A stretch of 20,415 bases of DNA from a virus. The stretch covers positions 1 through 20,415 of the IMG/VR virus record IMGVR_UViG_3300015360_000239; one strand, given 5' to 3'. Below, piece by piece: positions 4,786 through 18,807 of this stretch. Positions within the stretch are counted from its first letter, which is position 1. Each line of letters starts with the position of its first letter. The notes beneath the pieces were generated by a model. The model was not told the DNA's origin, did no database searches, and worked only from the letters and a program-made list of their open reading frames with translations. A program made the translations under genes and the position numbers.

Positions 4786-4807
4786 TTGACGTTGCCGGCT
4801 ACGGCAA
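4786..4807 (+). promoter_or_regulatory. TTGACG-N12-GCAA element, copy 1 (before the gpW-position gene)
   Basis: The sequence runs TTGACG, 12 bases, GCAA, then CCC and the ATG at 4811. Bases 4791-4808 form a perfect 7-bp hairpin, GTTGCCG-GCTA-CGGCAAC. The preceding stop TAG and GGCGGCGC context is nearly the same as at copy 8 (18786). Confidence 0.8.
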
Positions 4808-4810
4808 CCC

Positions 4811-5077
4811 ATGAGCGCAGAATCTGACGCAGCCAAACTCGCACGCTACCGTATCGAAGTAACCCAAGCTCGCACGACCCGCGACCGGCTGGAGCTGCAC
4901 GGCCAGTCCGCAAGCTTTGGCGGCACGGCATTTTCCGGCGTGCAGTACGACGCGATCTTGAAGCGTGTCTCACGGCTGGAGGCCAGCATCGACGCACTGG
5001 AGGAGCGCGCCGCCGATAGCTCCATCCGGCCGGGCGTCAACTTGATCAACATCGTTGGAGAGAACAACTACCTGTGA
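4811..5077 (+). CDS. Small head-tail joining protein (gpW position)
   Basis: This is an 88-aa protein between the large terminase and portal genes, where lambda encodes the 68-aa gpW that stabilises filled heads and lets the tail attach. It is largely helical; residues about 44-70 (QYDAILKRVSRLEASIDALE) form a heptad-like helix. A short Gly/Ser segment (QSASFGGTAFSGVQ) separates two helices, as in gpW-like proteins, which have a helix, a beta hairpin and a helix. Sequence similarity to gpW itself is weak, so the name rests on size, helix content and position. Translation probably uses the TTGACG element; there is no Shine-Dalgarno. The stop overlaps the portal GTG as GTGA. Confidence 0.6.
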   Translation: MSAESDAAKLARYRIEVTQARTTRDRLELHGQSASFGGTAFSGVQYDAILKRVSRLEASIDALEERAADSSIRPGVNLINIVGENNYL

Positions 5078-6807
5078 AAAACGTCACCCCCAAGAAATTA
5101 ACGGTGGCGCAAAAAAAGATCGTGGCCTCGCTGAAAGACGCGGGCTATAAATTTACCTACGCGGGCGCCGGCACAACGCGCTTTCGCGATTTCCGAATCA
5201 ATACCGGCTCGCGCTCCGAGGCGCAAATGTTGCCGTACTATGACCGCCTTCGCATCATCACGCGCCTTCGCCAGATGGTTCGTGATGATGCCGTTTGCGC
5301 GGCCATTCTTTCCGCCTACCCGGTGCAGCTCGGCACCAGCACGCTGAACTCGCTGGAGCACACCGCCGCCGACCCCGACACCGGCGAGGATGCTGCCACT
5401 CCGGACGCCGCTGCCGCGCTGTTCAACGACGCGCATGAAACCGAATGGTGCGGCTGGTCGTGCAACTGCGAATATACCGGCATGTCTCTTTCGCAGGTCG
5501 AGACGATTGCATGGCGCGAGGATTTAATCGCCGGCGAGGTGTTCCTGCTCAAGCTCAAGAGCGGAAAGGTGCAGCTCATCCCCAGCGAGTTTTGTTTCAG
5601 CGAGGACGTTTCAATTTTCTCCAAGAGCGCAACGGCGCAACCAGGCCGGGACGAGAAAGACGGCATCGTAGTTCAGGATGGCGTCGTGACCGGCTACCGC
5701 TTTGGCTTCCGCGACTCCGGCGGCAACTTGCAGCAGGGCAAGGAGATTACGCCCGCCGAAGACGTCATCCATTTCTTTTTCCAAGACCGCCCCGAGCAGC
5801 GGCGCGGCATCCCGAGACTGGCGCCCGTGATTAATATTTTGCAGGACATCCAGGAAATCACGAACGCAAAAGTCCAGCAGGTGAAGACGCAGAGCTTCAT
5901 TTCCGCCGTGGTGACAAAAAATTACGCGCCCGCCGAGGCCGCCGACCTGTTGCGCACGAGCAACTCGGACGGCACGCGCAGCGATTATCAAGACCTGCGC
6001 GGAAACGCGATGTACTACCTCGAAACCGGCGAGGACATGAAGCCGTTTCAGTCGAGCACCAACGCCGCCGACTTCTCTGACTTTCTGAAATCTCGACTAG
6101 AGGCCATCGGTGGAGCAATCGGAGTTCCACCGGAAATCTGGATCGAGGGATTCCGTGATTCCAACTACTCCAGCGCGCGGGCGACAATCAGCGGATTTAT
6201 TCGCACGGTCTACCAGCGTCGCGGGCATATGGTGTCGCGCTTGCTGGAGCCGCTGCACGGTTTTTGGGTAGAGAAGAACCCGGCGCTCTGGCGCGAGGTC
6301 GGCGCGGAGTACGATACGACCGAGGTATCATTCACCTTTCCCGGAGTCCCGGCCATCGACGAAAGCAAACAAAACGACGCCGACGCGAAAGCGCTGGCGG
6401 CTTGCCTGACCACGTTCGGCGCGGTGTACGCGGCCAAGGGGAAATTCTGGGACACCGAGTTTAAACAGATTGCGCGGGAGAAGCAGCGCATGGCTGCGCT
6501 GGGCATCGCCCCGAATTTCGCCCCAGCCAACGGCGGATTGCCCGGCTCTGACGGCGCGCCCGAGCAAGATCCATCGGTGGTGATGAAGGCAAAAGCCGAC
6601 GCTTATGGCGTGGCGGTTCGAGCCGGCATGGTCACGCCGCAGGTTGAGGATGAAGAAAAATTCCGCGAGGCCGCAGAGCTGGCGCCGATGTCTGGCTCCG
6701 TTCGCTCGGCATGGGCAGAAAACGCCGTGCGCTATCCAATCACGGTCAAGGCGGACATCGGCGCAGCGCTGCCGGTAAACTCCGCGCCCGTCGCTACCGA
6801 AAATTGA
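5074..6807 (+). CDS. Portal protein (lambda gpB family)
   Basis: This is a 577-aa protein; lambda gpB is 533 aa. It forms the dodecameric ring at one vertex through which DNA enters and leaves and to which terminase and connectors bind. Family features include the N-terminal segment LPYYDRLRIITRLRQMVRDD, the Trp/Cys-rich WCGWSCNCEYTGMSLSQVE followed by AWREDLIAGEVFLLK, the DVIHFFFQDRPEQRRGIPRLAPV region (typical of portals: residues around Arg-Gly-x-Pro), and a later helix-rich stem and crown (SNYSSARATISGFIRTVYQRR). The start is GTG at 5074, overlapping the previous stop, with GGAG about 13 bases upstream. The C-terminal 100 residues are Pro/Ala-rich. The stop TGA lies within the TTGACG element of the next gene. 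Confidence 0.95.
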   Translation: MKNVTPKKLTVAQKKIVASLKDAGYKFTYAGAGTTRFRDFRINTGSRSEAQMLPYYDRLRIITRLRQMVRDDAVCAAILSAYPVQLGTSTLNSLEHTAADPDTGEDAATPDAAAALFNDAHETEWCGWSCNCEYTGMSLSQVETIAWREDLIAGEVFLLKLKSGKVQLIPSEFCFSEDVSIFSKSATAQPGRDEKDGIVVQDGVVTGYRFGFRDSGGNLQQGKEITPAEDVIHFFFQDRPEQRRGIPRLAPVINILQDIQEITNAKVQQVKTQSFISAVVTKNYAPAEAADLLRTSNSDGTRSDYQDLRGNAMYYLETGEDMKPFQSSTNAADFSDFLKSRLEAIGGAIGVPPEIWIEGFRDSNYSSARATISGFIRTVYQRRGHMVSRLLEPLHGFWVEKNPALWREVGAEYDTTEVSFTFPGVPAIDESKQNDADAKALAACLTTFGAVYAAKGKFWDTEFKQIAREKQRMAALGIAPNFAPANGGLPGSDGAPEQDPSVVMKAKADAYGVAVRAGMVTPQVEDEEKFREAAELAPMSGSVRSAWAENAVRYPITVKADIGAALPVNSAPVATEN

Positions 6808-6825
6808 CGCAGGCGCAAACGGCAA
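6804..6825 (+). promoter_or_regulatory. TTGACG-N12-GCAA element, copy 2 (before the prohead protease)
   Basis: TTGACG, 12 bases, GCAA, directly joined to the ATG at 6826. The portal stop codon TGA is part of the element's TTGAC. Confidence 0.85.
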
Positions 6826-7956
6826 ATGCCCGTCGCACAACTTCCACAAACCGAGTTCCGTCTGTCCGCCCGCGCCGCCCTTGGCGCCATTGATTCCGCC
6901 AAAGGTTTTTTCAAGGATGTTTCGCTTATGACCGAGGGCGAGGCGCTCGGGCACGGATGTTTCTGCGACACGAAAACCTTGCAAGGCGTGTTTGGCCTTG
7001 CGCAGAAATCGCCGGTAAAAGCGTACCTCACGCACGGCAGCATGTTCGAGGCCGACCGGCTCGGCCAGGAGGTCGGCCTGTTCTCCGGCATCTACATCGA
7101 GGCCAAGCAGGTCAAGGCCAAGCAATTCACTTTTTTCAAATCCTTCAAGGAAGGCACTGACACGGCTGCGAAGTATGCCGCGCTGATGGATCTCGCCGAG
7201 GCCGACCCGTCGCTGTTTGGCGTGTCGCTGTCGTTCTCCGGCAGTCTGGTCTGGTCCATGCCGGACGGCGCCGAAATGGAGTTTTCCGAGGACCGGCCCG
7301 AGGGCTGCGAAATGGAAATGCCATCCGTGCGCGTGGGCCGCATCTACTCCGCTGATTTTGTGGGAGACCCGGCCGCGAATCCGTCCGGCCTGTTCGACGC
7401 GCGCCGGATTGCCGCCGCGCAGTTGCTCGGCATCGAGCTTCCCACGCTTAGGTCCGCTGATGTTTCCCCTTCCCCTCTCACCAAACCGGCCGCGGTCACG
7501 GTAATTGACGCCGCCGTAGTTAGCAAACCCAACAATATTTCCATGATTAAAGACCTTCGCTCCAAGTTTTCCGATCCCGCCGTGTTCACCCGCGCCTGCG
7601 AAATTTATTCGCTCAACGATAAGCTGACCATTGCCGAAATCGAGACCGCCATTGCAGGCGAGGCCAAGGAATCCGCTTCCATCAAGCTCGCCGCCGACTT
7701 CGAGGCGCTGACGCTCGCTCAGGTCGAGGCCACCAAAAAGCATGAGAGCGAAGTCGCCGCGCTTAAGGCCGACCTTGCCGCCGCCCGGCTGGGCGCGACC
7801 GCCATCAACCTCGGCAACGGTGGCGACGGCGGGGGCGACATCCTCGCCAGGTATTCCGCCATGGGCAACAACGAGGCCGGCGCTTTCTATGCCGCTAACC
7901 GCGAGGCCATCGCCCGCGCTGTCTCGGCCCGCAACGACGCCGCCCGCGCCAAGTAA
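6826..7956 (+). CDS. Prohead protease with C-terminal scaffold domain
   Basis: This is a 376-aa protein. The N-terminal 200 residues fit a serine-type prohead maturation protease: candidate catalytic His at H70 (KAYLTHG), candidate Ser at S134 in LFGVSLSFSG, and the later segment YSADFVGDPAANPSGLF, which resembles the Asp/Pro-containing motif that closes such domains. Residues about 200-239 form a Pro/Ala/Ser linker. From residue 240 (MIKDLRSKFSDPAVF) the protein is a helical, charged scaffold-like region with a coiled coil (residues about 285-325), then a Gly-rich stretch and an Ala-rich tail. Lambda uses the same design: protease C with scaffold Nu3 started internally in the same frame. The protease would cleave scaffold and itself during head maturation. 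The catalytic residues are proposed from context only. Confidence 0.85.
   Translation: MPVAQLPQTEFRLSARAALGAIDSAKGFFKDVSLMTEGEALGHGCFCDTKTLQGVFGLAQKSPVKAYLTHGSMFEADRLGQEVGLFSGIYIEAKQVKAKQFTFFKSFKEGTDTAAKYAALMDLAEADPSLFGVSLSFSGSLVWSMPDGAEMEFSEDRPEGCEMEMPSVRVGRIYSADFVGDPAANPSGLFDARRIAAAQLLGIELPTLRSADVSPSPLTKPAAVTVIDAAVVSKPNNISMIKDLRSKFSDPAVFTRACEIYSLNDKLTIAEIETAIAGEAKESASIKLAADFEALTLAQVEATKKHESEVAALKADLAAARLGATAINLGNGGDGGGDILARYSAMGNNEAGAFYAANREAIARAVSARNDAARAK
7505..7526 (+). promoter_or_regulatory. TTGACG-N12-GCAA element, copy 3 (inside the protease gene, before an internal start)
   Basis: This is an exact spacing match lying inside a coding frame. It is followed by ACCCAACAATATTTCC and an in-frame ATG at 7543. 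The same ACCCAACA continuation follows copy 7 (14618). TAA directly precedes TTGACG out of frame, as at true intergenic copy 7. Confidence 0.8.
7543..7956 (+). CDS. Head scaffold protein from an internal start (Nu3-like)
   Basis: This is a 137-aa product sharing frame and stop with the protease gene. The internal ATG is preceded by a full copy of the element found before other genes of this phage, and by a T-rich leader. The protein begins MIKDLRSKFSDPAVFTRACE, has a charged coiled coil in its middle (TLAQVEATKKHESEVAALKAD) and an Ala-rich C-terminus (SARNDAARAK). Scaffold proteins are small, helical and made in large excess, then removed by the protease. Lambda Nu3 is translated from inside gene C in the same way. 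Internal initiation explains the excess of scaffold over protease. The internal start is inferred from the element and family knowledge, not proven. Confidence 0.65.
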   Translation: MIKDLRSKFSDPAVFTRACEIYSLNDKLTIAEIETAIAGEAKESASIKLAADFEALTLAQVEATKKHESEVAALKADLAAARLGATAINLGNGGDGGGDILARYSAMGNNEAGAFYAANREAIARAVSARNDAARAK

Positions 7957-7997
7957 TTTCCACCAACTCAACCGAAAAAACCTAAAAAAATCTTTTT
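7957..7997 (+). promoter_or_regulatory. A/T-rich leader of the major capsid gene
   Basis: The leader has no Shine-Dalgarno and no TTGACG element, but has long A and T runs (CCTAAAAAAATCTTTTT) directly before the ATG. In this GC-rich sequence that is striking. Unstructured A/U-rich leaders favour strong, Shine-Dalgarno-independent translation, which fits the most abundant virion protein. Confidence 0.5.
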
Positions 7998-8873
7998 ATG
8001 GCAACCCTGACGAACGTAAACGATAAAATTATTTCGCAAAAGGCGCTCGAAGGCCTGACCGCGTACCTGTCTCCCTTCTCTGCTTTCTCAACCAACTACG
8101 ACGACGACGCCAAGCAAAAGGGCGACACCGTTGTCGTGCCGCTCGTCGGCACGCTCACCGCTACGACTTTCTCCAACTATGAAGTTGGGGGCGGGACCAT
8201 GACGGCCGCGACCGTGCTGCTCAATCAGCATAAGAATGTTCCGCTCGACCTGACCGACATTCAGTTCGCGAACTCCAGTTCCGCGCAGCTGGAGAAGTGG
8301 GGTTTTCAAGCCGGCCAAGCGCTTGGCGAACTCGTCACGACCACGATCTGGGCCGCGATCACCTCGGTAAATTTCACGATCGGTTACACCTACCCGGTGG
8401 CCTCGTGGAACGTCGCCCGCTTGCTCGAAGTGCGCCGCGTGCAGAATGTCGGCAAGGTGCCGCAGAACGACCGCAGCCTGTTTCTCGATCCGACCTCGAT
8501 GGCGGCGATCCTCGGCGACGTCGCGGTGCAGTCAGCCAGCCTCTACGGCGGCAACAGTGCCATCCGCGAGGGCCGCATTGATCGTGTGGGCGGATACAAC
8601 CTCTTTGAGTCCTCGCTCATCCCGACCACTAACACTCAATACGGTTTTGCCGTCCACCCCTCGGCCATCGCCGTCGCGGTTCGCGGTCTCCAGCCGAGCG
8701 ATTCCTCGATGTACCTTGCCTCTGGCTTGATCAGGGAGGCAGTCTCGGGCCTGACCATTGGCTATCGCAGACATTACAGCCCTAGCGCTGGTCGTCAGTA
8801 CCTTAATTTCGAGTGCGTTTTTGGATCGGCCGCCGGCATTACCGGTTCGCTGCACCGCATCGCGTTTCAGTGA
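7998..8873 (+). CDS. Major capsid protein
   Basis: This is a 291-aa protein directly after the protease/scaffold gene, the normal place for the major head protein. It begins MATLTNVNDKIISQKALEGL. The sequence shows alternating helices and strands with features seen in HK97-fold capsid proteins: an N-terminal helix, a strand-rich segment with GDTVVVPLVG, a central domain (SLFLDPTSMAAILGDVAVQS), and a late strand with YRRHYSPSAGRQYLNFECVFG followed by a C-terminal hydrophobic strand. No large N-terminal delta domain is present, in keeping with a separate scaffold protein. A hairpin and terminator follow, so the head transcript probably ends or is attenuated after it. The class is supported by position and pattern; the exact subfamily is not clear. 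Confidence 0.9.
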   Translation: MATLTNVNDKIISQKALEGLTAYLSPFSAFSTNYDDDAKQKGDTVVVPLVGTLTATTFSNYEVGGGTMTAATVLLNQHKNVPLDLTDIQFANSSSAQLEKWGFQAGQALGELVTTTIWAAITSVNFTIGYTYPVASWNVARLLEVRRVQNVGKVPQNDRSLFLDPTSMAAILGDVAVQSASLYGGNSAIREGRIDRVGGYNLFESSLIPTTNTQYGFAVHPSAIAVAVRGLQPSDSSMYLASGLIREAVSGLTIGYRRHYSPSAGRQYLNFECVFGSAAGITGSLHRIAFQ

Positions 8874-8894
8874 GAAACTGACTCCACAAAGTTT

Positions 8895-8911
8895 CCCGCG
8901 CCCGGCGCGGG
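8895..8911. other. GC-rich hairpin after the capsid gene
   Basis: CCCGCGC, loop CCG, GCGCGGG gives a perfect 7-bp stem 22 bases after the capsid stop. It has no U-tract of its own. It may protect the 3' end of the head-gene mRNA or assist the terminator that follows 20 bases later. Confidence 0.6.
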
Positions 8912-8930
8912 GTGCTCGTGTGTTCATAGG

Positions 8931-8963
8931 AAGGGCCGCTCAGAAATGGGCGGCTCTTTTTTT
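8931..8963 (+). terminator. Rho-independent terminator after the major capsid gene
   Basis: The stem is AAGGGCCGC paired with GCGGCTCTT (9 bp including one G-T pair) with a 10-base loop, followed by a run of seven T (8957-8963). It lies between the capsid gene and the glycosyltransferase cassette, so the cassette should depend on readthrough or its own promoter. Confidence 0.8.
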
Positions 8964-8990
8964 GTGCAGTCGGCGGCTCTGTTTTTGTGC
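8948..8990 (+). repeat. Tandem duplication of the terminator's 3' arm and T-run
   Basis: 8948-8967 and 8971-8990 match at 18 of 20 positions (GGCGGCTCT, T-run, GTGC) with a period of 23 bases. The second copy has its T-run broken by one G. The 5' arm GCCGC could pair with either copy, giving two alternative hairpins. Confidence 0.7.
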
Positions 8991-9015
8991 TTTACTCTCC
9001 CGCCGCCAGCATCCG
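8984..9015 (+). promoter_or_regulatory. Copy 2 of a 32-bp repeated upstream element (possible promoter of the glycosyltransferase cassette)
   Basis: It matches 665-696 at 29 of 32 positions (shared TTTGTGCTTTACTCTCCC, CGCCAGC, TCCG). It lies between a terminator and the first gene of a coupled cassette, exactly where a promoter is needed. No consensus -10 box is visible. Confidence 0.45.
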
Positions 9016-9024
9016 AAGTGGGCC

Positions 9025-10779
9025 ATGAGCAAAGAGTCCCCGCTTATTTCGCTGTGCCTGATTGCCGGCAACGAGGAAATGCATGTTCGCCGCTGCCTCA
9101 AGACATTCGCGCCAATGGCGGACGAGATTATCGTCGTCCGCGCCATCGGCAACCTGAAACCGGACGCCACGCTCGACATTGCACACGCCGAGTTCGGCGC
9201 GATTACCGCGGAATACCGCAACGCGCCGGAAAACGCGGACTGGCCGCACGTGGACAATTTCGCAAACGCCCGTAACATGGCGTTCGATCTGGCTACCGGG
9301 CAGTTTCAGGTTTGGGTAGATTTCGACGACATCGCGGAGGCCGACCACGTTCTCGGATTCCGCGACGCCGCCGAAAACGCGAACCTTTCCGGCTGGGACG
9401 TTATTCACCTGCCGTACTCCATCCCATACAGTGGCGCCTCTCCGCGCCGTGAGCGCATCATCCGGCGCGGTTGCGGTAAGTGGGTGGGCGCCGTGCATGA
9501 GTGCATCCACGACGCAAAGGAGGGCAACCGGCACGTTGTAGGCGACGACATCGTGGTCGTTCACGCGCCCTTGGTGAATAAGACGCGCAATGGAATGTCA
9601 AACTCGCGCAACATAAGGATCCTCGACGCAGTGAAAGACAAAAGCATTGGCGAGCTGTATTATCACCACCAGGAACTCATTGGCCTTGGCCGCAACACCG
9701 AGGCCATCGCCGCCGGCAAGCTCGCGCTGGGGCACGAGGCGCTCGGGCCGCATGAGAGGTATGAGATATTCACGAATCTGGCGCTCATATCCCAGACCAA
9801 CGAGCAGAGGCGCACGTTTTTGCTGCACGCATTTGGCACCGACCCGACGCGCCGCGAGGCGCTGGCGCTGATGATGACAAACGAGCTTAACGGCGCCACG
9901 CCAAACGCGCGGGCCTCGCTGGCCTACGCGCAGATGATGCGCGCACTGCCCAAGCCCGACAACGCCCCGAGCCTGGCGTCGTTGAGAAACCACCTCTACA
10001 CCCCGAGCGGCGAAGCCTCGTTTTATTCGATGGCGCTTCGTGCAAATGGAAAAATGGCAGAGGCGGACGCGCTTCAACTCGAAGCCTTCCGGCGCGCTGG
10101 CGGCAAGATTTCCCTGCTCCACGCCACGCGCGGGCGCGGACAGCAGGCTCTGACTCAGCGCAAATTTTGGATCGACTCGGCAATTAACCCCGAGCTGGTC
10201 GAGCATATTTTCGCCTGCGACGACGACGACCGGCAGGGCAACGGACATATCGCGCTTTTTAATCACACCGTGGTTCCGGTCGGTGGCGGCTGTTGCGCGG
10301 CATGGAACGCGGCGGCGACGGTATCCAGCGGCGAGGTACTCATCGCAATTGCGGATGACGTTATTCCGCCTATCGGGTGGGACCGCGCCGTGCTGGAGGC
10401 CATCGGCGACACGACAAAGCCGGCCGTGCTCGCAACCTCTGACGGCCACCGCAAGGACACGCTGCTCACTCTCGCGATCCTCACGCGCGCGCGACTGGTG
10501 CAGCAGGGCGGCAAGGTGTGGCACCCCAGATTTAAATCGGTCTACTGCGACAACTATTTCACGCACCAAGCCTACAAGGACGGCGTGGTGATTGAGGCGC
10601 GGCAGATTGTTTTTGAGCACTCGCATCCGGTCTTCACCGGCGCGCCGATAGATAAAACCTATGCCGAAAGCAACGCGGTCCAGCGGTATATCGACGGGCG
10701 CGCGGCCTACATGGAGCTGACCGGCGAGACCCTGCCCGAGCTGGTTTTCACCGAGCCAACACCAACACCAACACCATGA
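9025..10779 (+). CDS. Two-domain glycosyltransferase (GT-A fold, family 2-like)
   Basis: This is a 584-aa protein from ATGAGC at 9025. The frame is open from 8758, but the upstream part overlaps the capsid gene and terminator. The N-terminal domain (about 1-200) begins ISLCLIAGNEEMHVRRCLKT, typical of family-2 glycosyltransferases, and has a DXD-type site DFDD at 99-102. A helical, TPR-like middle follows (about 205-370; YYHHQELIGLGRNTEAIAAG). The C-terminal domain (about 375-540) looks like a second GT-A domain, with CDDDD at 398-402 and ADD at 443-445, the latter being the likely metal site. It would transfer sugars from nucleotide-sugars to a virion protein or host surface glycan. The end is a PTPTPTP tail made by a six-base DNA repeat. 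Its stop overlaps the next start as ATGA. Confidence 0.85.
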   Translation: MSKESPLISLCLIAGNEEMHVRRCLKTFAPMADEIIVVRAIGNLKPDATLDIAHAEFGAITAEYRNAPENADWPHVDNFANARNMAFDLATGQFQVWVDFDDIAEADHVLGFRDAAENANLSGWDVIHLPYSIPYSGASPRRERIIRRGCGKWVGAVHECIHDAKEGNRHVVGDDIVVVHAPLVNKTRNGMSNSRNIRILDAVKDKSIGELYYHHQELIGLGRNTEAIAAGKLALGHEALGPHERYEIFTNLALISQTNEQRRTFLLHAFGTDPTRREALALMMTNELNGATPNARASLAYAQMMRALPKPDNAPSLASLRNHLYTPSGEASFYSMALRANGKMAEADALQLEAFRRAGGKISLLHATRGRGQQALTQRKFWIDSAINPELVEHIFACDDDDRQGNGHIALFNHTVVPVGGGCCAAWNAAATVSSGEVLIAIADDVIPPIGWDRAVLEAIGDTTKPAVLATSDGHRKDTLLTLAILTRARLVQQGGKVWHPRFKSVYCDNYFTHQAYKDGVVIEARQIVFEHSHPVFTGAPIDKTYAESNAVQRYIDGRAAYMELTGETLPELVFTEPTPTPTP

Positions 10780-11117
10780 ACGAAGATGCGCAACGCGTGG
10801 CGCTCGCCGCCGCCGATGGATGGACGAACTTGCAGTGGACCGAGATACATAACCCGTGGAACGAACGAAGATTGAGGGGAATCCCGCCAGCCAGCAGCTC
10901 ACGGTCATTGATCAGTGAGGTGCCATTCTACCGCACCGACCTGAACGCGATGAATTGGCTGGAGAGGAAGCTCGCCGCCGATAGTGACTACGGCTTCCAC
11001 TTGAGCCGCGTCACCGGCGCCACAATTGGCAGCGATATGATGCTTTTCTCGGCGAGCGCGAAACACCGCGCCGAGGCATACCTCCGCACAATCGGCAAAT
11101 GGGTTGACTCACCATGA
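10776..11117 (+). CDS. Phage ABA-sandwich-like small protein
   Basis: This is a 113-aa protein. The pattern YRTDLNAMNWLERKL, then YGFHLSR, then HRAEAYLRTIGKW matches a small domain I know from many phage genomes (often annotated Phage ABA sandwich): an Asp-Leu-Asn-Ala-Met helix, a central strand pair, and a C-terminal Arg-Ala-Glu-Ala-x-Leu-Arg-Thr-Ile/Leu-Gly-x-Trp helix. In other phages it is usually a non-structural protein of unknown role. Here it is locked between two glycosyltransferases by ATGA overlaps on both sides, which suggests co-expression with them. No Shine-Dalgarno is seen, so translation probably depends on coupling. The N-terminal 40 residues, with several Trp, are variable. 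Confidence 0.65.
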   Translation: MNEDAQRVALAAADGWTNLQWTEIHNPWNERRLRGIPPASSSRSLISEVPFYRTDLNAMNWLERKLAADSDYGFHLSRVTGATIGSDMMLFSASAKHRAEAYLRTIGKWVDSP

Positions 11118-11908
11118 AACTCTCCTGCCTCATCCTCACCCACAACGAGGCCGACCGAATCGACATCGCGATCACGCACGCGCTGCAATGGGCCGACGAG
11201 GTTGTCGTGCTCGACAAGCAGAGCACGGACCGGACCCGCGCCATCGCGCTCGACATGGGCGCCCGTGTTGAGACGCTCCCGTTCTCGCGGCAGGGCCACG
11301 AAAACCTTGCGCAAATGGCCTCTTGCGCAACGCATGACTGGGTGTGGCGCTTCACTCCCGGCGAAGTTCCCACCGAAAAACTAATCGCCGCCGGCAAGGC
11401 GCTAATGTCGGACGACATCGACGCCGTTCTCGTGCCTCACTTTTATTATGCGTTCGGCTCGCACCAGCCCACGTCGCCGTGGTCATTCAGCGGTCAGCCG
11501 CGACTGTATAATCGCACCCGAGTAACGTTCACGGGAATTTCTCACGACGCCATCCGGGCCGAGCGCGTCGCGACAATCGAGGGCAAAGAGGATTGCTACG
11601 TGCTCCATCAAACGCACTCGGGCGCCGACAGCTTTTTGCGCGTTCACGCCGACTACGCGCTCAACGAAGGCGCACACGGAGAGCCCAGGCCGGCGTTTGA
11701 GCGCGCCTTGCTCATGTCGCAGAAATACGACAAGCAGTTTGCCGAAAGTGCGGCCATGTTCCCCCACATGTTGGGCTGGAAAATCTACTGGTTTTCCGTC
11801 GCGCTCCACGCATGGGAGCGCAGTCTGTCCGCGCCGATCAAGGAAGGTTACCGCGCCCGCGCGCTGGCCTACCTCAAAACATACTGGCGCAAAGGGGAAT
11901 CGCCATGA
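11114..11908 (+). CDS. Family-2-like glycosyltransferase with altered DXD site
   Basis: This is a 264-aa protein resembling WaaE/KdtX-type family-2 enzymes: LSCLILTHNEADRIDIAI, then WADEVVVLDKQSTDRTRAIA and a GARVE strand, the usual nucleotide-sugar binding half. At the place where these enzymes read DWV-x-x-(L)-DADE, this protein has DWVWRFTPGE (residues 75-84), so both metal-binding Asp residues are replaced (by T81 and G83), while E84 remains. The C-terminal half has the expected Trp/Tyr-rich helices (GWKIYWFSVALHAWERSL) that in this family often bind the acceptor or membrane. It may be metal-independent, a partner of the other two enzymes, or inactive. Its start overlaps the previous stop and its stop overlaps the next start, both as ATGA. 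Confidence 0.8.
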   Translation: MKLSCLILTHNEADRIDIAITHALQWADEVVVLDKQSTDRTRAIALDMGARVETLPFSRQGHENLAQMASCATHDWVWRFTPGEVPTEKLIAAGKALMSDDIDAVLVPHFYYAFGSHQPTSPWSFSGQPRLYNRTRVTFTGISHDAIRAERVATIEGKEDCYVLHQTHSGADSFLRVHADYALNEGAHGEPRPAFERALLMSQKYDKQFAESAAMFPHMLGWKIYWFSVALHAWERSLSAPIKEGYRARALAYLKTYWRKGESP

Positions 11909-12495
11909 CGCCGCTTCTATCAATCCTCGTGGCCGGCACGCCGTCGCGGGTCGAGTCGTTCGCCCTGCCGCTGATTCGCCGGCTGGAGGCTCAGGCGGTT
12001 GGCCTGCCCGTGGAGATCCTTTATTTGCTAGATAATAAAATGCGCAGCGTGGGCGGAAAGCGGCAGGCGTTGCTGGATATTGCGCGGGGCGATTACGTCG
12101 CTTTTTGCGACGACGACGACGCCGTGGAGCATGACTACATTCGCGAAATACTTGGCGCTATTAACCTGAGCCGGCCGGACGTGGTGACGTTCGACCAGCT
12201 GGCCGACATCGGCGGATATATCGGCATCGTCCATTGCCGCCTCGGGCAAGCCGAGGAATGTTTCGCTCCGTCGCCGCACGTTACGCCGCGCGACGCCTGG
12301 CACTTTCACGCATGGCGCCGCTCGCTGGCGCAGTGCTGCAAGTTTCCGGATCTCATGGATGGCGAAGACTACGCATGGGCCAAGCAGGCGCGCACGCTTG
12401 CGAAGTCGGAGGTCCACCTCGACAAGGTTCTACACCGATACACGTTTAGGCCGGCCCTGACCGAGGCGACTGGAAAAAACTTGCCGCAGCATTGA
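11905..12495 (+). CDS. Small family-2 glycosyltransferase with intact DDDD and ED motifs
   Basis: This is a 196-aa protein from ATG 11905, which overlaps the previous stop as ATGA and has GGGG about 9 bases upstream. Open frame extends back to 11812, but that part duplicates the end of the neighbouring gene in another frame. Residues 49-72 (VGGKRQALLDIARGDYVAFC followed by DDDD) are the classic nucleotide-sugar/metal site of GT-A enzymes, and DGEDYAWAKQA gives the ED catalytic-base motif at 154-155. It is smaller than usual (most are 230-300 aa) but appears complete, ending with HRYTFRPALTEATGKN. It is the last gene of the cassette, and its stop TGA lies inside the TTGACG element of the next gene. 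It probably adds a sugar to the same acceptor as the other cassette enzymes. Confidence 0.8.
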   Translation: MTPLLSILVAGTPSRVESFALPLIRRLEAQAVGLPVEILYLLDNKMRSVGGKRQALLDIARGDYVAFCDDDDAVEHDYIREILGAINLSRPDVVTFDQLADIGGYIGIVHCRLGQAEECFAPSPHVTPRDAWHFHAWRRSLAQCCKFPDLMDGEDYAWAKQARTLAKSEVHLDKVLHRYTFRPALTEATGKNLPQH

Positions 12496-12513
12496 CGCCC
12501 TCGGCCATAGCAA
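12492..12513 (+). promoter_or_regulatory. TTGACG-N12-GCAA element, copy 4 (before the connector gene)
   Basis: The element joins directly to ATG at 12514. The cassette's last stop TGA is inside TTGAC. Bases 12501-12521 form a perfect 8-bp hairpin, TCGGCCAT-AGCAA-ATGGCCGA, that encloses the start codon. Confidence 0.8.
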
Positions 12514-12831
12514 ATGGCCGACACCTCGCTGACTTACTTCATGGGCCGCACGCTCGGCTCGCTCATGGACTGGGGCAACGATGCACTGCTCTACCATGGC
12601 CAGCGCTACCGGTGCATCATAAATCCCGCCGTGCGCATAGACGATCAGGAGCTGGTCGGCTCGCTGCCGGGTCTGGTTTATCCGCTGGTGATTTTGAAGG
12701 ATGATTTCCCGGCCGGGCCGCCTCCGGTTGGTGCGCGGCTGACCGTGGGTGGCAAGCTTTTCACGCGCCGGGGCGACGCGGGCGAAGATAATTTGAGCTA
12801 CACTATCACGCTGGCCAAGCACGGCGCCTGA
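12514..12831 (+). CDS. Head-tail connector (gpFII-position protein)
   Basis: This is a 105-aa, beta-rich protein. It is the first gene after the glycosyltransferase cassette and before the tail completion gene, matching lambda gpFII (117 aa), which joins head and tail. Residues 28-60 (HGQRYRCIINPAVRIDDQEL and onward) and 75-100 (GARLTVGGKLFTRRGDAGED, then SYTITLAK) read as beta strands separated by turns, as in small barrel connectors. The loop DDFPAGPPPVGARLTVGG is typical of small phage proteins that say 'value allowed at this site' in barrel form. There is no Shine-Dalgarno; the start depends on the TTGACG element. It could also be a minor tail or neck protein. Confidence 0.55.
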   Translation: MADTSLTYFMGRTLGSLMDWGNDALLYHGQRYRCIINPAVRIDDQELVGSLPGLVYPLVILKDDFPAGPPPVGARLTVGGKLFTRRGDAGEDNLSYTITLAKHGA

Positions 12832-12833
12832 TC

Positions 12834-13664: not shown

Positions 13665-13680
13665 TCCGACCCGAGCGCTT

Positions 13681-13702
13681 TTGACGCCGGCCACAAGGGC
13701 AA
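13681..13702 (+). promoter_or_regulatory. TTGACG-N12-GCAA element, copy 5 (before the tail terminator gene)
   Basis: The element joins directly to ATG at 13703, preceded by GCGCTT after a gap of 16 bases from the previous TAA. GGGCAAATGCCC is a short inverted repeat over the start codon. Confidence 0.85.
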
Positions 13703-14182
13703 ATGCCCGCACCTAACCTTGCTACCCTCTACCAATTCGAGGGCCAGCTAGACGCCGCGTTTGCCTCTGTGCTGTCGGCGAGCGGCACGCCCGCATTTTT
13801 TGCGCACACGACCGAGGAAAAGCCGGCTGACCGGATCGAGGTCATGGCGGAAATCGGCGCCGCAACCGACCAGCTGGCCACGAATAAAGAGTTCAACACC
13901 TACAATTTTAACCTCACGGCCACGGCATACACGCAGCGCGACCTCGACGAGCCGCTCCCGACCCGGCACCGCTGGCTAGTCGGCCAGATACGCGCCCGGC
14001 TTTCCGTGTTGAACTCGGCCGCGAACTTCACTTCCGGAAATTTGCCGTATCTGCAATTGCTCAAGTTGGTTCCGGCTGGATCCGCCTCCGACTTCGACAA
14101 CGCGCAGGACCGCGCGCAGGACATTACGCGCCTGCAATATGCCGGACAGTTTGCGATTATCAGCACGGCTTGGCCCGCTTGA
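13703..14182 (+). CDS. Tail terminator-like protein (gpU position)
   Basis: This is a 159-aa protein. It begins with a helix (NLATLYQFEGQLDAAFASVL), followed by a strand-rich core (NTYNFNLTATAYTQRDLDEP) and a helix (RHRWLVGQIRARLSVLNSAA), an order seen in tail terminator proteins such as lambda gpU (131 aa), which cap the tail tube and dock it to the head. Position between the gpZ-like gene and the small putative tube gene supports this. No transmembrane or enzymatic motif is visible. Similarity at residue level is not recognisable to me, so another neck role is possible. It has no Shine-Dalgarno and starts at the end of a TTGACG element. Its stop lies in the next element. Confidence 0.55.
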   Translation: MPAPNLATLYQFEGQLDAAFASVLSASGTPAFFAHTTEEKPADRIEVMAEIGAATDQLATNKEFNTYNFNLTATAYTQRDLDEPLPTRHRWLVGQIRARLSVLNSAANFTSGNLPYLQLLKLVPAGSASDFDNAQDRAQDITRLQYAGQFAIISTAWPA

Positions 14183-14200
14183 CGGGAAGGCTAACGGCAA
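14179..14200 (+). promoter_or_regulatory. TTGACG-N12-GCAA element, copy 6 (before the decoration-like gene)
   Basis: The element joins directly to ATG at 14201. The preceding stop TGA (14180-14182) is inside TTGAC. The start context GGCAAATGGCAGCAC recurs at 15573-15587. Confidence 0.85.
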
Positions 14201-14617
14201 ATGGCAGCACTCACGATCACCGCCGCTAGCTTTGTGCCCGGCGTAAACGCGAAAATAAAGCAGGGCATTGCCGGCGAAACGGTAACGCAGGGGCAAACCG
14301 CTTACCTGAAAACGAGCGATAACCGGCTATACAAGGCCAGCGCGACAACCTCAGCCGAGACCGCGCTGATCGTCGGCCTGTTCGCGAACGGAGCCAGCGC
14401 CGGGCAACCGGTCGATTACGTTTACGAGGATGACGACCTTGCCGTCGGCGCCACGCTCGTCATGACCACGCCGGTTTACGTCGCCGGCACCACGGCCGGC
14501 GCAATCAATCCGACCGCTGACATTTCCACGACATGGTACCCCACGGTTTTATTCGTCGCAAAGTCCACGAGCAAGGCCGTCCTGAAAATCACCGCAGGCG
14601 GCGCGCTCGCGATTTAA
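14201..14617 (+). CDS. Decoration/cement-like virion protein
   Basis: This is a 138-aa protein. IKQGIAGETVTQGQTAYL, KTSDNRLYKAS and TTSAETALIVGLFANGASAG follow a layout I know from small phage head-decoration proteins: a 'Gly-Glu-x-(Ile/Val)-x-x-Gly-Gln-x-x-Tyr-Leu' strand, a 'Lys-x-x-(Asp)-x-x-Leu-Tyr-x-Ala' strand, and Gly-rich turns (VDYVYEDDDLAVGATLV, GTTAGAINPTAD). These bind the capsid exterior and stabilise it after DNA filling. In lambda the decoration gene D lies before E; here the gene is among tail genes, so an alternative is a tail tube or spike decoration. It has many Thr/Ser residues that could be glycosylation targets, but nothing shows they are used. Confidence 0.5.
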   Translation: MAALTITAASFVPGVNAKIKQGIAGETVTQGQTAYLKTSDNRLYKASATTSAETALIVGLFANGASAGQPVDYVYEDDDLAVGATLVMTTPVYVAGTTAGAINPTADISTTWYPTVLFVAKSTSKAVLKITAGGALAI

Positions 14618-14639
14618 TTGACGCTGCCAGCAACGGCAA
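14618..14639 (+). promoter_or_regulatory. TTGACG-N12-GCAA element, copy 7 (before the tail tube gene)
   Basis: The element starts directly after the TAA of the previous gene and is followed by an 18-base A/T-rich leader (ACCCAACACTTTTAATTT) before ATG at 14658. The continuation ACCCAACA is shared with copy 3. Confidence 0.8.
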
Positions 14640-14657
14640 ACCCAACACTTTTAATTT

Positions 14658-14993
14658 ATGGCTTTTCAAGACGGTTCACACCCATTCGGCTCAGTAGTCG
14701 TCACCATTGGCAGCATCGGTTATATCACCGAGAACTGGGAGATCACGCAGCCATCCAGCACCACCGACATTCGGAACAACCTCGGCGAAATTTCCGGCTG
14801 GATTGCCGTTGCCGGTTTCATTACGGCGAAGGCCACCTGCCAGCTCGCAACCTCGACGTATCCGGTGCCGACGCTCGGCTCCATTTTCACGCTTTCGTCC
14901 GTGACGTATGTGGTTCTGGAGACCGGCTCGCCACAGTCGCAGATGGACATCACCAAGGTTAGCCTGACGGTGCGCAAGCGGGTAAACTCGTAA
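14658..14993 (+). CDS. Small virion protein, possible tail tube protein
   Basis: This is a 111-aa beta-rich protein two genes before the tape measure, the usual place of the tail tube (lambda gpV, 246 aa). It is short for a tube protein, but small tubes exist. The sequence alternates hydrophobic strands (SVVVTIGSIGYITENWEIT, SGWIAVAGFITAKATCQL, TYVVLETGSPQSQ) with a 'QMDITKVSLTVRKR' end typical of a barrel's last strand. The A/T-rich leader before its start, like the capsid leader, fits high expression. The ATGGCTTTTCAAG start codes MAFQDG. It could instead be a minor structural protein; no member of the family is recognised by sequence. Confidence 0.45.
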   Translation: MAFQDGSHPFGSVVVTIGSIGYITENWEITQPSSTTDIRNNLGEISGWIAVAGFITAKATCQLATSTYPVPTLGSIFTLSSVTYVVLETGSPQSQMDITKVSLTVRKRVNS

Positions 14994-15000
14994 GCGCGCC

Positions 15001-15005
15001 GGGAG
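15001..15005 (+). promoter_or_regulatory. Shine-Dalgarno GGGAG before the GTG start at 15015
   Basis: GGGAG with a spacing of 9 bases to GTG 15015. This site decides the start, because the gene uses GTG and no ATG is suitable. It contrasts with element-led starts just upstream, which lack such a motif. Confidence 0.7.
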
Positions 15006-15014
15006 TTCCCCGCC

Positions 15015-15623
15015 GTGCAAGAGCCACCCCACGAAGTTCCCGGCCTCGCCGCCGCGCTGCATCTGGAGCAGGAGCGCCGGCAGCTGGCGTTTTGCGACAC
15101 GCTGCTTCCGATTGGTCGAGCATGGGCGAAGCAGTTCACGGCCGCGCACTGGGTCGCGCTCGGCTTGATTGGCTCGCCCTTCCTCGGCGGAAATCGCTTC
15201 ACCCCATTTAGCCGGCCAGCCGTGCTTGAATTTCTCTGGATCGTATCGCCTGACTACGTGGCCGGCTCACGGCTGCGCGCCCTGTGGTTCTGGCTGCGCA
15301 ATTTCTCTGCTGTCCAGCCGGCCACCGCCCGCGCAATATTCGACTACCTGGACGCAGCATTTCAGGACATGCCGAGCTGCACCGCGTCGGCCGACCGCCG
15401 CAGCTATTACGCGGGTGTTGCTTCGCTCGTGGATCTGTTCGCGCGCGAATACGGCTGGGGCGACAACCAGATTATGCATACGCCGCTCGCCCGGCTCTAC
15501 CAGTATTTCAGGTGCGTGGACAAGCACCACAATCCCCGCGCGATAATGCATAATCCGTCTGACCGCGTGCTCGGCAAATGGCAGCACGAGCGGGCCGCAG
15601 CGGCCAGCAAGGGAGAAAACTAA
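15015..15623 (+). CDS. Protein in the tail assembly chaperone position
   Basis: This is a 202-aa protein encoded between the putative tube gene and the tape measure gene, where most siphophages encode their tail assembly chaperone (gpG/gpGT in lambda). It is helical and Trp-rich (RLRALWFWLRNFS), with several hydrophobic segments (AAHWVALGLIGSPFLGG) that look amphipathic rather than membrane-spanning. Chaperones bind and cover the hydrophobic tape measure. I found no sign of a programmed frameshift product: the next frame open downstream is the tape measure itself. It starts with GTG behind a good GGGAG. I do not recognise the sequence family, and the role is inferred from position only. Confidence 0.5.
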   Translation: MQEPPHEVPGLAAALHLEQERRQLAFCDTLLPIGRAWAKQFTAAHWVALGLIGSPFLGGNRFTPFSRPAVLEFLWIVSPDYVAGSRLRALWFWLRNFSAVQPATARAIFDYLDAAFQDMPSCTASADRRSYYAGVASLVDLFAREYGWGDNQIMHTPLARLYQYFRCVDKHHNPRAIMHNPSDRVLGKWQHERAAAASKGEN

Positions 15624-15625
15624 CC

Positions 15626-16927
15626 ATGGCAGACTCAGCAATCACCGCGAGAATCGGGGGCGACGCGTCCGGCCTCGTCGCCGCGCTCGACACGGCGAAG
15701 GCCGCTGCGAGCAAATTTGGCGACGACTTCCAGCGCGTCGTCGCGAAGAAACTTCAATTCCGCGACGTGCTGAAAGGAGTTTTTCAGGGCATCGGCATCG
15801 CGTCGGTTGGTGCTGTCGTTGAAAAAATCGTTGCGCCGTTCAGGCAGGCGGCTGAATCCGCCACGGCCCTCGCCGATGAAACCGAGCGCGGCGCCAGGGC
15901 CACGGAGGAAATGCTGCGCATGAGGCAGAGCGACGTTGAGCAACTGGGCGTGATGGAGAACGCCCTTCGCCGAATCCGCGCCGAGGCGGAGGCGTCGGTT
16001 GCGCCGTCCAAGGAGTTTTTCGGCTTCATAGACCGGGGTTCCGCGCTGGACAAGCTTTTTGGTTTTTCCAGGAGAGAGGACGCTGAAATAGTTCTCCAAA
16101 AAGAGAAGGCCATCACCAAGGAGAAGGAACTGTCCGTAGAGATCATCAAGCTTTCGGAGAAAATCGAGTCCGACAAATTCGACAAGCAGGTTAAGAACGC
16201 GCAGGTGATGCAGAAATATGTTAAGGAAAACTACGAGCTGCTTGTGCTTGAGGCCAAGAAGGTCAGCGGCACTCTGCTCCCGGCGGAGAGATCGAGGCTT
16301 GAGGTGTTGCGGCTACAGGCGAAAGAGAAGGTGTTGATCGGGCGGCTGGAGGATGCGCTTTCGGTTCCCGTTGGACAGCGCACGGCGAAGGAGCGCGAAG
16401 CCATTCGCGCGCTCATCGCGCAGACCGAGGAAATCCGGACTCAGATTGTCCAAAAAGAAAAGCTGCTCGACGTCATCAAAGAAATTAAGGGCGAAGAAAA
16501 AGAAATCACGGCGCAAATAGTAGCTCAAAAGAAAGTCGCTTTCACTCGAAGCGGCCGGGGCGACGCCGACCTATCGGACCGCGAACTTGAGCGGAAGCGC
16601 GGCAACATCAAAAAGGACTTGGCCGAGATCGAGCGGGGCCAGCGCGAGAGCGGAAACTACAACGGGAGCGAATACTTCCAGCGCGTTGAACTCCAGTCGC
16701 TCGCCGGCGAAATTGCCATGCGCCAGAAATTCCGGCGCAACGTGAGCGCGTTCGGCGAGGACCGCGCCTTTGCCATGTCCGGCCTCACCGAGCAGCGTGC
16801 ATCCGCAATCTTGAGCGACACCACCGGCGAAGCGACCAACCGAAAACTTCTCGACGGAATAAACAAATTGAACGACCAGATCAAGAACGGCATCACCGTT
16901 CGCGCATTGACCGCTCCCGGAGATTAA
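15626..16927 (+). CDS. Tail tape measure protein (short)
   Basis: This is a 433-aa protein. It has the tape measure layout: a short N-terminal region (ITARIGGDASGLVAALDTAK) used to contact the chaperone, a hydrophobic stretch (residues about 51-71, VFQGIGIASVGAVVEKIVA), and long charged helices and coiled coils to about residue 360 (SVEIIKLSEKIESDKFDKQV, KEKVLIGRLEDAL). The C-terminus (NRKLLDGINKLNDQIKNGIT) is typical of phage proteins of this kind. Tape length sets tail length: about 0.15 nm per residue would give roughly 65 nm, a short siphovirus tail. GGGAG lies 10 bases before ATG 15626; an upstream in-frame ATG at 15578 would overlap the preceding gene by 46 bases. Confidence 0.75.
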   Translation: MADSAITARIGGDASGLVAALDTAKAAASKFGDDFQRVVAKKLQFRDVLKGVFQGIGIASVGAVVEKIVAPFRQAAESATALADETERGARATEEMLRMRQSDVEQLGVMENALRRIRAEAEASVAPSKEFFGFIDRGSALDKLFGFSRREDAEIVLQKEKAITKEKELSVEIIKLSEKIESDKFDKQVKNAQVMQKYVKENYELLVLEAKKVSGTLLPAERSRLEVLRLQAKEKVLIGRLEDALSVPVGQRTAKEREAIRALIAQTEEIRTQIVQKEKLLDVIKEIKGEEKEITAQIVAQKKVAFTRSGRGDADLSDRELERKRGNIKKDLAEIERGQRESGNYNGSEYFQRVELQSLAGEIAMRQKFRRNVSAFGEDRAFAMSGLTEQRASAILSDTTGEATNRKLLDGINKLNDQIKNGITVRALTAPGD

Positions 16928-16933
16928 CACGCC

Positions 16934-18778
16934 ATGGCATTTTTCGACCTCAGCGGCAACGGAGCCACCCCGACAATCAGCGACCAGAAGCGGGTCAGCT
17001 ACCCGTTTCTCGTCGGCGAGTCGCCCGACATTTACGCCCGCGTTATCGAGCGAGACTACACCGTGCTTGAGTCGGCCTACGTGCCCACGCTGGCCACGCG
17101 CACGACCTTCACGAACCTACTGACCTATTCCGAGCAGTTCGATAATGCCGCGTGGACCAAAACAAACACGACCATTTCGGCAAACTCGCTGGCCAACCCG
17201 ATGGACGGAGCCGTGACGGCGGACAGTATGCTGGAGGCCGCGTCCACCGCAGAGCACCGGGTCGAACGCAATTACACATTCACGGCGGCCAGCCACACGC
17301 TAAGCGTTTTTGCGAAAAGCCTGTCACGGCAATACATGCGGCTGATGACCTACGACGGCACGACATGGGCGCCCGCGTTTTTTGACCTGACCAACGGCAC
17401 GGTGATTTCACAGGTCGATTGCGTCGCCTCAATTGTCGCGGTTGCGCCAGGCTGGTTTCGTTGCTCGGCCACGCGCACGACGCTGGCCGCTGCCGGAGCA
17501 GTCTACCTTAACGCATCAACCGATGGCGTCACGGTCAGCTACGCCGGCGACATCACCAAGGGGCTTTATTTGTGGGGCGCAATGCTTGAGGTGGGCGGCG
17601 CTGGCGGCACCTACGCGCAGTCAGTCGCGGCATCTGCTTCGGTCAGTTCGCCCAACTCCGATTATCGCGACAACCTTGCGGCCGATAGCGGCGCGGACAC
17701 CCTCGCGTTTCTCGCGGCAGAGTCCGCACTTGCTCCGACCGGTGGCGGCATGGTGCAGTTCACGCGCACGTATGCGCGGATACCAGCGAGCCAGACGAGT
17801 TATGGTGCGCGACTGATTGACCGGCCGGCGATGAACGACCTCAAGAGCGGATCCACCTACGCGGTCAGCTTCGACGGCGGGCGGACCTCTACGCTGTTCA
17901 CTTCGCGCATCGCGGTATCGAGCATTACCCAGCCGGATGTGCCGACCACCTCAAACCCAGCCGGTGGGGCAACGCCGGGCACGCTGCCGCATGTGCTCAT
18001 CACCTACACGGCCGACAACAGCGCGCAAACATTCTACCCCGACGACACGGACGCCACAATTTGGGCGGCACTATCAAGCGCCGTTTCCGGAAACGCAGCG
18101 ACCTACGCAAGCAACGCCTACTACCCACTCGCGCGCACGTCCGGCAAGCTGATCATCGGAAATTCAGCCATAAGCACCAAGGTCAAAGGCTTCACGTGCG
18201 ATTCCCCGCTCGTGACCGTGGACATCGGGTCAGGGCGCGAACTCGGCGTGGGCGTGGCCGGCATCGAGTTGCTCACCGTAACGGCCACAAGTTCCAACGC
18301 AAACACCACGCGCACCGTTGCCACTGGCGGCGCTCATTCCGGCGCGGCTGGCGGTTGGTTCGCCGCGTGGAACGGCGACAAACTCGTGGCAATATCCAAG
18401 GCCGTTAGCGCGTCGTCATCGACTATGGAAGTTGCGCTGGTTGATTTTCAGGGCAGCGACCTTGCTCTGACCCACATCGCATTTGCGACGCAAGCCGCCG
18501 CGCGTTACGCCAACGGCCCGGCCTCGTGCACCGTCAAGGAAGTCTCAACCTACGCACTGCCGGGTGTGAGCAATGGCATCACAACCGCCGCCGACATCGC
18601 CCTTGTAGCGCCCAAGACCGCCGCGATCGACTGGCTGGGCGAGATCGTGGCCGCGTCCACTTACGCCGTCGCCGAGGGCTCGCAACTGGCGCGGTGGAAT
18701 GGCTGGCCGATCTACCAGCAGACCAGTGTGTCAGCGCAAATGTCAGACGCGCTGGACAGTGTGAGCCTCACGGCATAG
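16934..18778 (+). CDS. Virion fibre/tip protein with carbohydrate-binding-like domain
   Basis: This is a 614-aa protein with GGAG 11 bases before its ATG. Residues about 60-220 (NLLTYSEQFDNAAWTKTNTT, AEHRVERNYTFTAASHTLSV, then GLYLWGAMLEVGG) match a jelly-roll carbohydrate-binding fold I associate with phage fibres and head fibres. The rest is strand-rich with Gly/Ser/Thr-rich turns and repeated short hydrophobic segments (SGAAGGWFAAWNGDKLVAIS), typical of trimeric beta-structured fibres. The first 50 residues are probably the attachment part to the tail (YPFLVGESPDIYARVIERDY). It probably takes part in host surface binding or tail tip structure. The order directly after the tape measure, without lambda-like M/L/K/I/J genes, is unusual. 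Alternative: distal tail protein with an added lectin-like domain. Confidence 0.65.
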   Translation: MAFFDLSGNGATPTISDQKRVSYPFLVGESPDIYARVIERDYTVLESAYVPTLATRTTFTNLLTYSEQFDNAAWTKTNTTISANSLANPMDGAVTADSMLEAASTAEHRVERNYTFTAASHTLSVFAKSLSRQYMRLMTYDGTTWAPAFFDLTNGTVISQVDCVASIVAVAPGWFRCSATRTTLAAAGAVYLNASTDGVTVSYAGDITKGLYLWGAMLEVGGAGGTYAQSVAASASVSSPNSDYRDNLAADSGADTLAFLAAESALAPTGGGMVQFTRTYARIPASQTSYGARLIDRPAMNDLKSGSTYAVSFDGGRTSTLFTSRIAVSSITQPDVPTTSNPAGGATPGTLPHVLITYTADNSAQTFYPDDTDATIWAALSSAVSGNAATYASNAYYPLARTSGKLIIGNSAISTKVKGFTCDSPLVTVDIGSGRELGVGVAGIELLTVTATSSNANTTRTVATGGAHSGAAGGWFAAWNGDKLVAISKAVSASSSTMEVALVDFQGSDLALTHIAFATQAAARYANGPASCTVKEVSTYALPGVSNGITTAADIALVAPKTAAIDWLGEIVAASTYAVAEGSQLARWNGWPIYQQTSVSAQMSDALDSVSLTA

Positions 18779-18785
18779 GCGGCGC

Positions 18786-18807
18786 TTGACGTTGGCCGCA
18801 ACTGCAA
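18786..18807 (+). promoter_or_regulatory. TTGACG-N12-GCAA element, copy 8 (before the 136-aa gene)
   Basis: The element joins directly to ATG at 18808. The upstream sequence after TAG (GCGGCGC) is almost identical to that of copy 1 at 4778-4785. GTTGGCCGCAAC gives a small 4-bp hairpin. Confidence 0.85.

Follow-up and report, generated by a model that had tools for sequence, protein, structure and literature searches.

Results

The window and its eight TTGACG elements

The window, that is, the whole stretch of DNA analysed here, is a virus record of 20,415 bases and probably a fragment. Its genes run in the order small-terminase-like, large terminase, portal, protease-scaffold-like, major capsid, a block of glycosyltransferases and tail genes. 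The protease-scaffold protein, which is placed and shaped like a fusion, and the tail proteins owe their putative roles to position and to relatives. The initial annotation of this DNA described eight copies of a 22-nt element, TTGACG-N12-GCAA, and all eight are exactly where it had placed them. They lie on the plus strand, where a mean of 0.05 sites is seen in 100 dinucleotide shuffles, and the minus strand of the window has zero sites. TTGACG occurs nine times in total on the plus strand, the ninth at 4455, within the terminase gene. The features are listed below; here and throughout, distances are counted from the first T (U) of the word to the start codon.

4786–4807, plus strand: copy 1 (TTGACGTTGCCGGCTACGGCAA), 25 nt before ATG 4811 (88-aa protein, upstream of the portal gene)
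5074–6807, plus strand: portal gene (PHROG 21, E 1e-47), without element; its GTG start overlaps the stop of the preceding ORF
6804–6825, plus strand: copy 2, 22 nt before ATG 6826 (protease/scaffold ORF); TGA 6805–6807 ends the portal ORF 5074–6807
7505–7526, plus strand: copy 3, within ORF 6826–7956, 38 nt before the in-frame internal ATG 7543, the putative nested scaffold start
7543–7956, plus strand: putative nested scaffold protein, the in-frame C-terminal part of ORF 6826–7956, proposed from the reading frame and the analogous nested starts of relatives; its predicted N-terminus is MIKDLRSKFSD...
7998–8873, plus strand: major capsid gene (PHROG 283, E 8e-24), without element; CA/T-rich leader
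12492–12513, plus strand: copy 4, 22 nt before ATG 12514; its TGA ends ORF 11905–12495
13681–13702, plus strand: copy 5, 22 nt before ATG 13703
14179–14200, plus strand: copy 6, 22 nt before ATG 14201; its TGA ends ORF 13703–14182
14618–14639, plus strand: copy 7, 40 nt before ATG 14658; a CA-rich leader (ACCCAACA...) comes after it
18786–18807, plus strand: copy 8, 22 nt before ATG 18808; no ortholog was found in G001, the closest relative (see below)

As first described, the sixteenth base is A in seven of the eight copies, five (6804, 12492, 13681, 14179 and 18786) adjoin the ATG directly, and in three (6804, 12492 and 14179) the ORF before ends with the TGA contained in TTGACG. In the copies that do not touch an ATG, the first T lies 25 (4786), 38 (7505) or 40 nt (14618) from the start, with the internal TTGACG-N12-GCAA spacing unchanged. 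CA-rich leaders precede the two most distant of the element-bearing starts. The description of all copies as standing at gene starts is right for seven; the copy at 7505 is inside ORF 6826–7956, at a place where no start is annotated.

Window starts without the element (171, 2067, 10776, 11114, 11905, 15015, 15626 and 16934) often have CC directly before the start codon (..CCATG or ..CCGTG), unlike the CAAATG context of the element starts. In the window phage this CC may constitute another type of start context.

The closest relative retains TTGAC, not GCAA

The closest relative found, G001, is 38 kb long and syntenic, and is 71% identical to the window in the terminase, 63% in the portal and 59% in the capsid protein. 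Seven of the window's element-bearing starts have orthologs in G001, among them the nested scaffold start and that of the long-leader gene at 14658, and TTGACG, TTGACC or TTGACA is present upstream at 7/7 of these; judged from aligned 5' ends, TTGAC is present at 0/7 orthologs of element-free starts. The ortholog of the copy 1 gene has TTGACG 20 nt before its ATG. The leader of the 14658 ortholog is about as long (39 nt), and the orthologs of the window's two distant starts have the word at 39–41 nt. Since G001 keeps TTGAC but not GCAA, the core of the element is TTGAC plus one base, and GCAA is particular to the window phage. The ten-letter bipartite motif of the initial annotation thus stands in its TTGAC(A/G) part, which is general, and not in its GCAA part, which is absent even from the closest relative.

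TTGACA lies at a narrow distance from the start codon in related phages

Related phages were fetched via the major capsid protein, the alignments of which led to about 80 IMG/VR loci. In the largest group, A (L131–L160), an ATG follows at 19–23 nt after 138 of 164 distinct TTGACA sites; the background is 6.7%, and TTGACA comes first of 3,866 hexamers. In groups E, F and H taken together it again ranks first, of 3,645. Outside approximately 19–24 nt the histogram of TTGACA-to-start distances is at background. CTGACA shows similar, weaker behaviour. The general form in related phages is TTGACA-N13–17-ATG: the spacer carries no further information, and homologous genes drift within 19–23 nt. In 17 virus records this pattern is found almost only on the coding strand, with up to 12 occurrences per record, and the reversed control gives 5 in total. 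The narrow distance to the start codon that a sequence-specific initiation signal would show is thus seen in group A; three of the eight window copies (25, 38 and 40 nt) deviate from it. In subgroups B, most of C and most genes of D the word is absent or rare. The initial annotation had staked a special role for the element on conservation in related phages and on its frequency inside genes as compared with gene starts. The word is kept in relatives and is not equally common in the two places, so that the reading survives both comparisons.

Other searches for carriers of the element were set aside. The exact 16-letter element, used as an IMG/VR query, retrieved 13 contigs with a single copy each, which we take as chance. 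When relatives were collected by the terminase alone, Shine-Dalgarno (SD) words dominated in those from genomes of other phyla (AGGAG is the top upstream word there), TTGAC was not enriched, and L108, a 51% relative, was without the element. Contigs that matched the pattern and lacked the family's proteins, considered as unrelated phages sharing the word, had chance sites in coding sequence and none at real gene starts.

Nested starts in the protease/scaffold ORF

In most related phages TTGAC(A) stands ahead of internal in-frame starts in the ORF that precedes the capsid gene. Group A has two marked internal starts per ORF, about 160 and 124 codons from its end. By an automatic tally 43 of 50 distinct protease/scaffold ORFs carry the word, a count that includes ORFs marked only at their first start, among them those of the window and G001, the nested starts of which (38–41 nt) fall outside the range searched. 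In G326 the marked internal start is at residue 112, just before the match to a ClpP-like protease (residues 116–401). A signal that marks true starts is expected to mark internal in-frame ones as well, and this is what the nested protease/scaffold starts display. The reading frame of the nested sites differs between phages (xTT-GAC-A at distances of 20 and 23 nt, TTG-ACA at 21 nt), and the peptides differ too. With differing peptides and two reading frames, it is the nucleotides rather than the protein that are under selection here.

The head protease of phage lambda, gpC, likewise contains a nested in-frame start, that of the scaffold Nu3. In our phages, too, translation of a scaffold protein is predicted to begin in frame within the protease ORF, directly ahead of the capsid gene; the difference is that this start is marked by TTGAC(A/G), and that group A has two such marked starts.

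The nested sites also bear on the suggestion that the element is a conserved linker at which genes are exchanged, i.e. recently duplicated DNA that does nothing more than join exchanged genes. In the window copies, the 12-nt middles resemble one another more closely than their composition would lead one to expect (mean pairwise identity of 42% vs 27%; 0 of 20,000 shuffles reach the observed value), so some of the copies probably share descent, and copies 1 and 8 have GGCGGCGC upstream in common. Against this, relatives keep only the six-letter word and the start distance while the spacer is free, and nested sites lie within coding sequence in differing frames. A linker accounts for the partial likeness of copies within the window phage and for nothing beyond it; already largely refuted, it is extremely improbable as a general explanation.

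The word is found at uncoupled starts of late genes

Whether a start carries the word depends on the position of the preceding stop codon. Gene starts were computed with the element-supported start preferred where present, and the following fractions are accordingly upper estimates: among starts 15–25 nt after the preceding stop, 30/43 carry the word in group A (70%), 13/18 in groups E, F and C (72%) and 3/3 in the window and G001; among starts overlapping the preceding stop the corresponding numbers are 21/68 (31%), 1/26 (4%) and 0/10. In 81 of 216 sites the TGA of TTGAC itself terminates the ORF before. The word is restricted to that half of the genome in which the structural and lysis genes lie. 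With fractions that are again upper estimates, and with the start-choice rule favouring the word applied to early genes equally, it is found at 30 of 104 late-module starts vs 1 of 95 early ones (P 6e-9), and at uncoupled starts in 16/19 late vs 1/10 early cases. Taken together, these distributions indicate that the word serves those late genes for which translational coupling to the preceding gene is not available.

Promoter, Shine-Dalgarno and structural features

The letters TTGACA are identical to the consensus of the sigma-70 −35 element, and one alternative is a late promoter, in which TTGAC would be read by an RNA polymerase that the phage modifies or encodes, and leaderless or very short-leader mRNAs would start just before the ATG. 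The window lends this some support, as TTGACG-N12-GCAA is fixed while the distance to the ATG varies in three copies, and in Deinococcus-Thermus leaderless expression from ORF-adjacent promoters is known (PMC12340547). However, what is fixed in related phages is the distance to the start codon, and there is no −10 box at promoter spacing, 15–18 nt after the −35-like hexamer. At sites of the main class the best TATAAT matches average 2.07 of 6 positions vs 2.28 in shuffles, and none has five or more, in agreement with what the initial annotation had noted for the window. A −10 box of the main class would, moreover, sit inside the gene. A six-letter word without other information is little for a promoter, some ten promoters would be needed in one late operon, and the promoter reading gives no reason either for the 5-nt window of start distances or for the avoidance of starts that overlap the preceding stop. 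We therefore regard a late promoter as unlikely.

SD-like 4-mers at positions −15 to −4 are as frequent as expected (14 seen vs 13.1 expected in 108 sites), and we found no further sequence information around the word. Nor is there a common hairpin: the unpaired probability of TTGACA is 0.573 vs 0.566 with shuffled flanks. A hairpin that presents the word was rejected overall, long enclosing stems being present at few starts, mostly that of the first late gene. In L131, L138, L142 and L147 the word at the small-terminase-like gene is in the loop of a perfect 6–7 bp stem, the sequence of which differs between them; an example of a stem near the first late gene is ATAAGCA-TTGACAGG-TGCTTAT.

Another RNA-level alternative, which the initial annotation had named together with a protein-binding site, is processing, in which an endoribonuclease would cut the late polycistronic mRNA at UUGAC and thereby free the downstream start. 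Sites at intergenic junctions and before nested starts of the late module are compatible with this, and the bipartite form in the window, with its variable leader, fits a cut near GCAA. However, no structure is conserved around the word, a cut needs no tight distance to the start, and no candidate nuclease was identified; we rate processing as quite improbable.

Variant spacing and the probable hosts

Phage P8625 (L129; described in PMC4642752) is the only cultured Verrucomicrobia phage near the group and the best cultured match for both capsid and portal. It has no TTGACA at 19–23 nt. Instead, TTGACA stands 35–36 nt before five ORFs (4637, 5412, 10736, 15558 and 22406), and any excess at this distance is inconspicuous among the ranked hexamers. 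Three of these five sites have a GTATCC...GGATAC-like hairpin between the word and the start. In L169, L194, L195, L196, L198 and L337, TTTGACTTTCGCC is found 34–35 nt before starts, counted from TTGAC; such starts often have an AANCCT-like word about 6–11 nt upstream. The possibility that a hairpin between TTGAC and ATG restores the usual distance in this 34–36 nt class was considered and dropped: it is suggestive in the three P8625 sites and not general. The class could be a differently spaced version of the TTGACA signal, or it could consist of short-leader promoters, and both P8625 and the TTTGACTTTCGCC sites have the distance expected of a leaderless −35 site.

From the similarity of capsid and portal to P8625, the hosts are probably Verrucomicrobiota. 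An attempt to reach them through prophages, by a search of 294 genomes of the phylum Planctomycetota, yielded three weak capsid matches, none of them accompanied by the word, and a repeat from another centre brought up almost the same genomes. PMC10783764 counts some Verrucomicrobia among the SD-scarce bacteria that have an intact anti-SD sequence, and together with the Verrucomicrobia phage as best cultured relative this brings up the alternative that UUGAC is a ribosome-binding word of the SD-poor hosts' own genes, adopted by the phages. A host-wide word is expected at early as well as late genes, but it is absent from the early genes of the same phages. P8625 is without it at 19–23 nt, contigs that match the pattern and lack family proteins do not have it at real gene starts, and 26 genomes of phyla other than Verrucomicrobiota have no clear excess of the word, as judged against a rough reversed control. 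A host-type ribosome-binding word is thus very unlikely.

Discussion

The element as a putative translation-initiation signal

Of the three readings offered in the initial annotation, a translation-initiation signal is the best supported. The fixed start distance, the internal starts, the avoidance of coupled starts and the lack of promoter partners are together best explained by initiation, and we consider it reasonably likely that the element is an RNA-level, non-Shine-Dalgarno signal for the translation of late genes. In the late polycistronic phage mRNA, UUGAC(A/G), normally 19–23 nt upstream of the start codon, would recruit or position the 30S subunit at starts that receive no ribosomes from the preceding cistron. 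We infer from the sequence patterns both the action on translation and the specific binding of the word by something. That the word is restricted to late genes speaks for a reader encoded by the phage or specific to infection, and against the everyday ribosome of the host. Two features count against a translation signal: in the window GCAA is fixed relative to TTGACG and not to the ATG, and an ordinary ribosome-binding site would not tolerate starts 38–40 nt away (39–41 nt in G001).

Like an SD site, the word is short, lies on the sense strand of the RNA, keeps a narrow distance to the start and is used at uncoupled starts. It differs in that TTGAC(A/G) is neither purine-rich nor complementary to the CCUCC anti-SD sequence, is separated from the start codon by 13–17 nt rather than about 5–9 and is used by late genes only. 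Non-SD signals that have been described include archaeal GGTG, AT-rich cyanobacterial leaders and S1-mediated initiation (PMC4535381). Our phages would share with them initiation other than via AGGAGG and the setting of SD-poor lineages; the differences are a specific hexamer, a sharp distance and a phage late module. A description of such a word as an initiation signal was not found in the literature searched, outside of which lay most subscription journals and preprints, and the word looks like an apparently undescribed, non-Shine-Dalgarno way of marking ribosome start sites.

A phage-encoded ribosomal protein, bS21, selects late phage mRNAs (PMC9723584). The idea of an initiation-site switch in the late phase of freshwater phages with SD-poor hosts is common to that system and to ours. 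The difference is that none of the group's 17 records, several of which are fragments, has a bS21 above the family cut-off (PF01165). We found neither a complementary rRNA nor a phage factor for the word, and among the early proteins annotated in G326, which include helicase, endonuclease and helix-turn-helix families, none is an evident translation factor. As a tentative proposal, which we hold with considerably less confidence than the initiation signal itself, a widespread group of uncultured Verrucomicrobiota phages may possess a late start code, UUGACA about 20 nt before the start, by which a phage-encoded or phage-modified ribosome factor brings in ribosomes without SD pairing and selects late messages.

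How start codons are chosen in SD-poor bacteria and their phages is an open question, and a hexamer at a fixed distance in dozens of phage genomes makes it testable. Should a phage factor read the word, phages would have a novel means of turning translation over to late genes. A practical use is the correction of predicted gene starts, those of nested scaffold proteins included, across a large group of environmental phages.

Other features of the window

Four further observations concern the window itself. The listed start of the terminase gene (2711–4777) is probably too far upstream, as similarity to relatives sets in at approximately residue 57–71. Between the capsid and tail genes (9025–12495) lie three or four glycosyltransferase-like genes; the block is also present in G001, and G326 has one such gene in the equivalent place. 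Tandem-like direct repeats of approximately 24 nt (GGTATAACCCCCCAGAGTGGCATA...) occupy 1836–1985, a gap and ORF region ahead of the small-terminase-like gene, and are possibly a replication or packaging site. Finally, a long stretch, GTGCTTTACTCTCCC..CGCCAGC.TCCG, occurs twice in near-identical form, at 663–700 and, immediately upstream of the glycosyltransferase gene at 9025, at 8972–9012; it is a possible promoter or recombination site.
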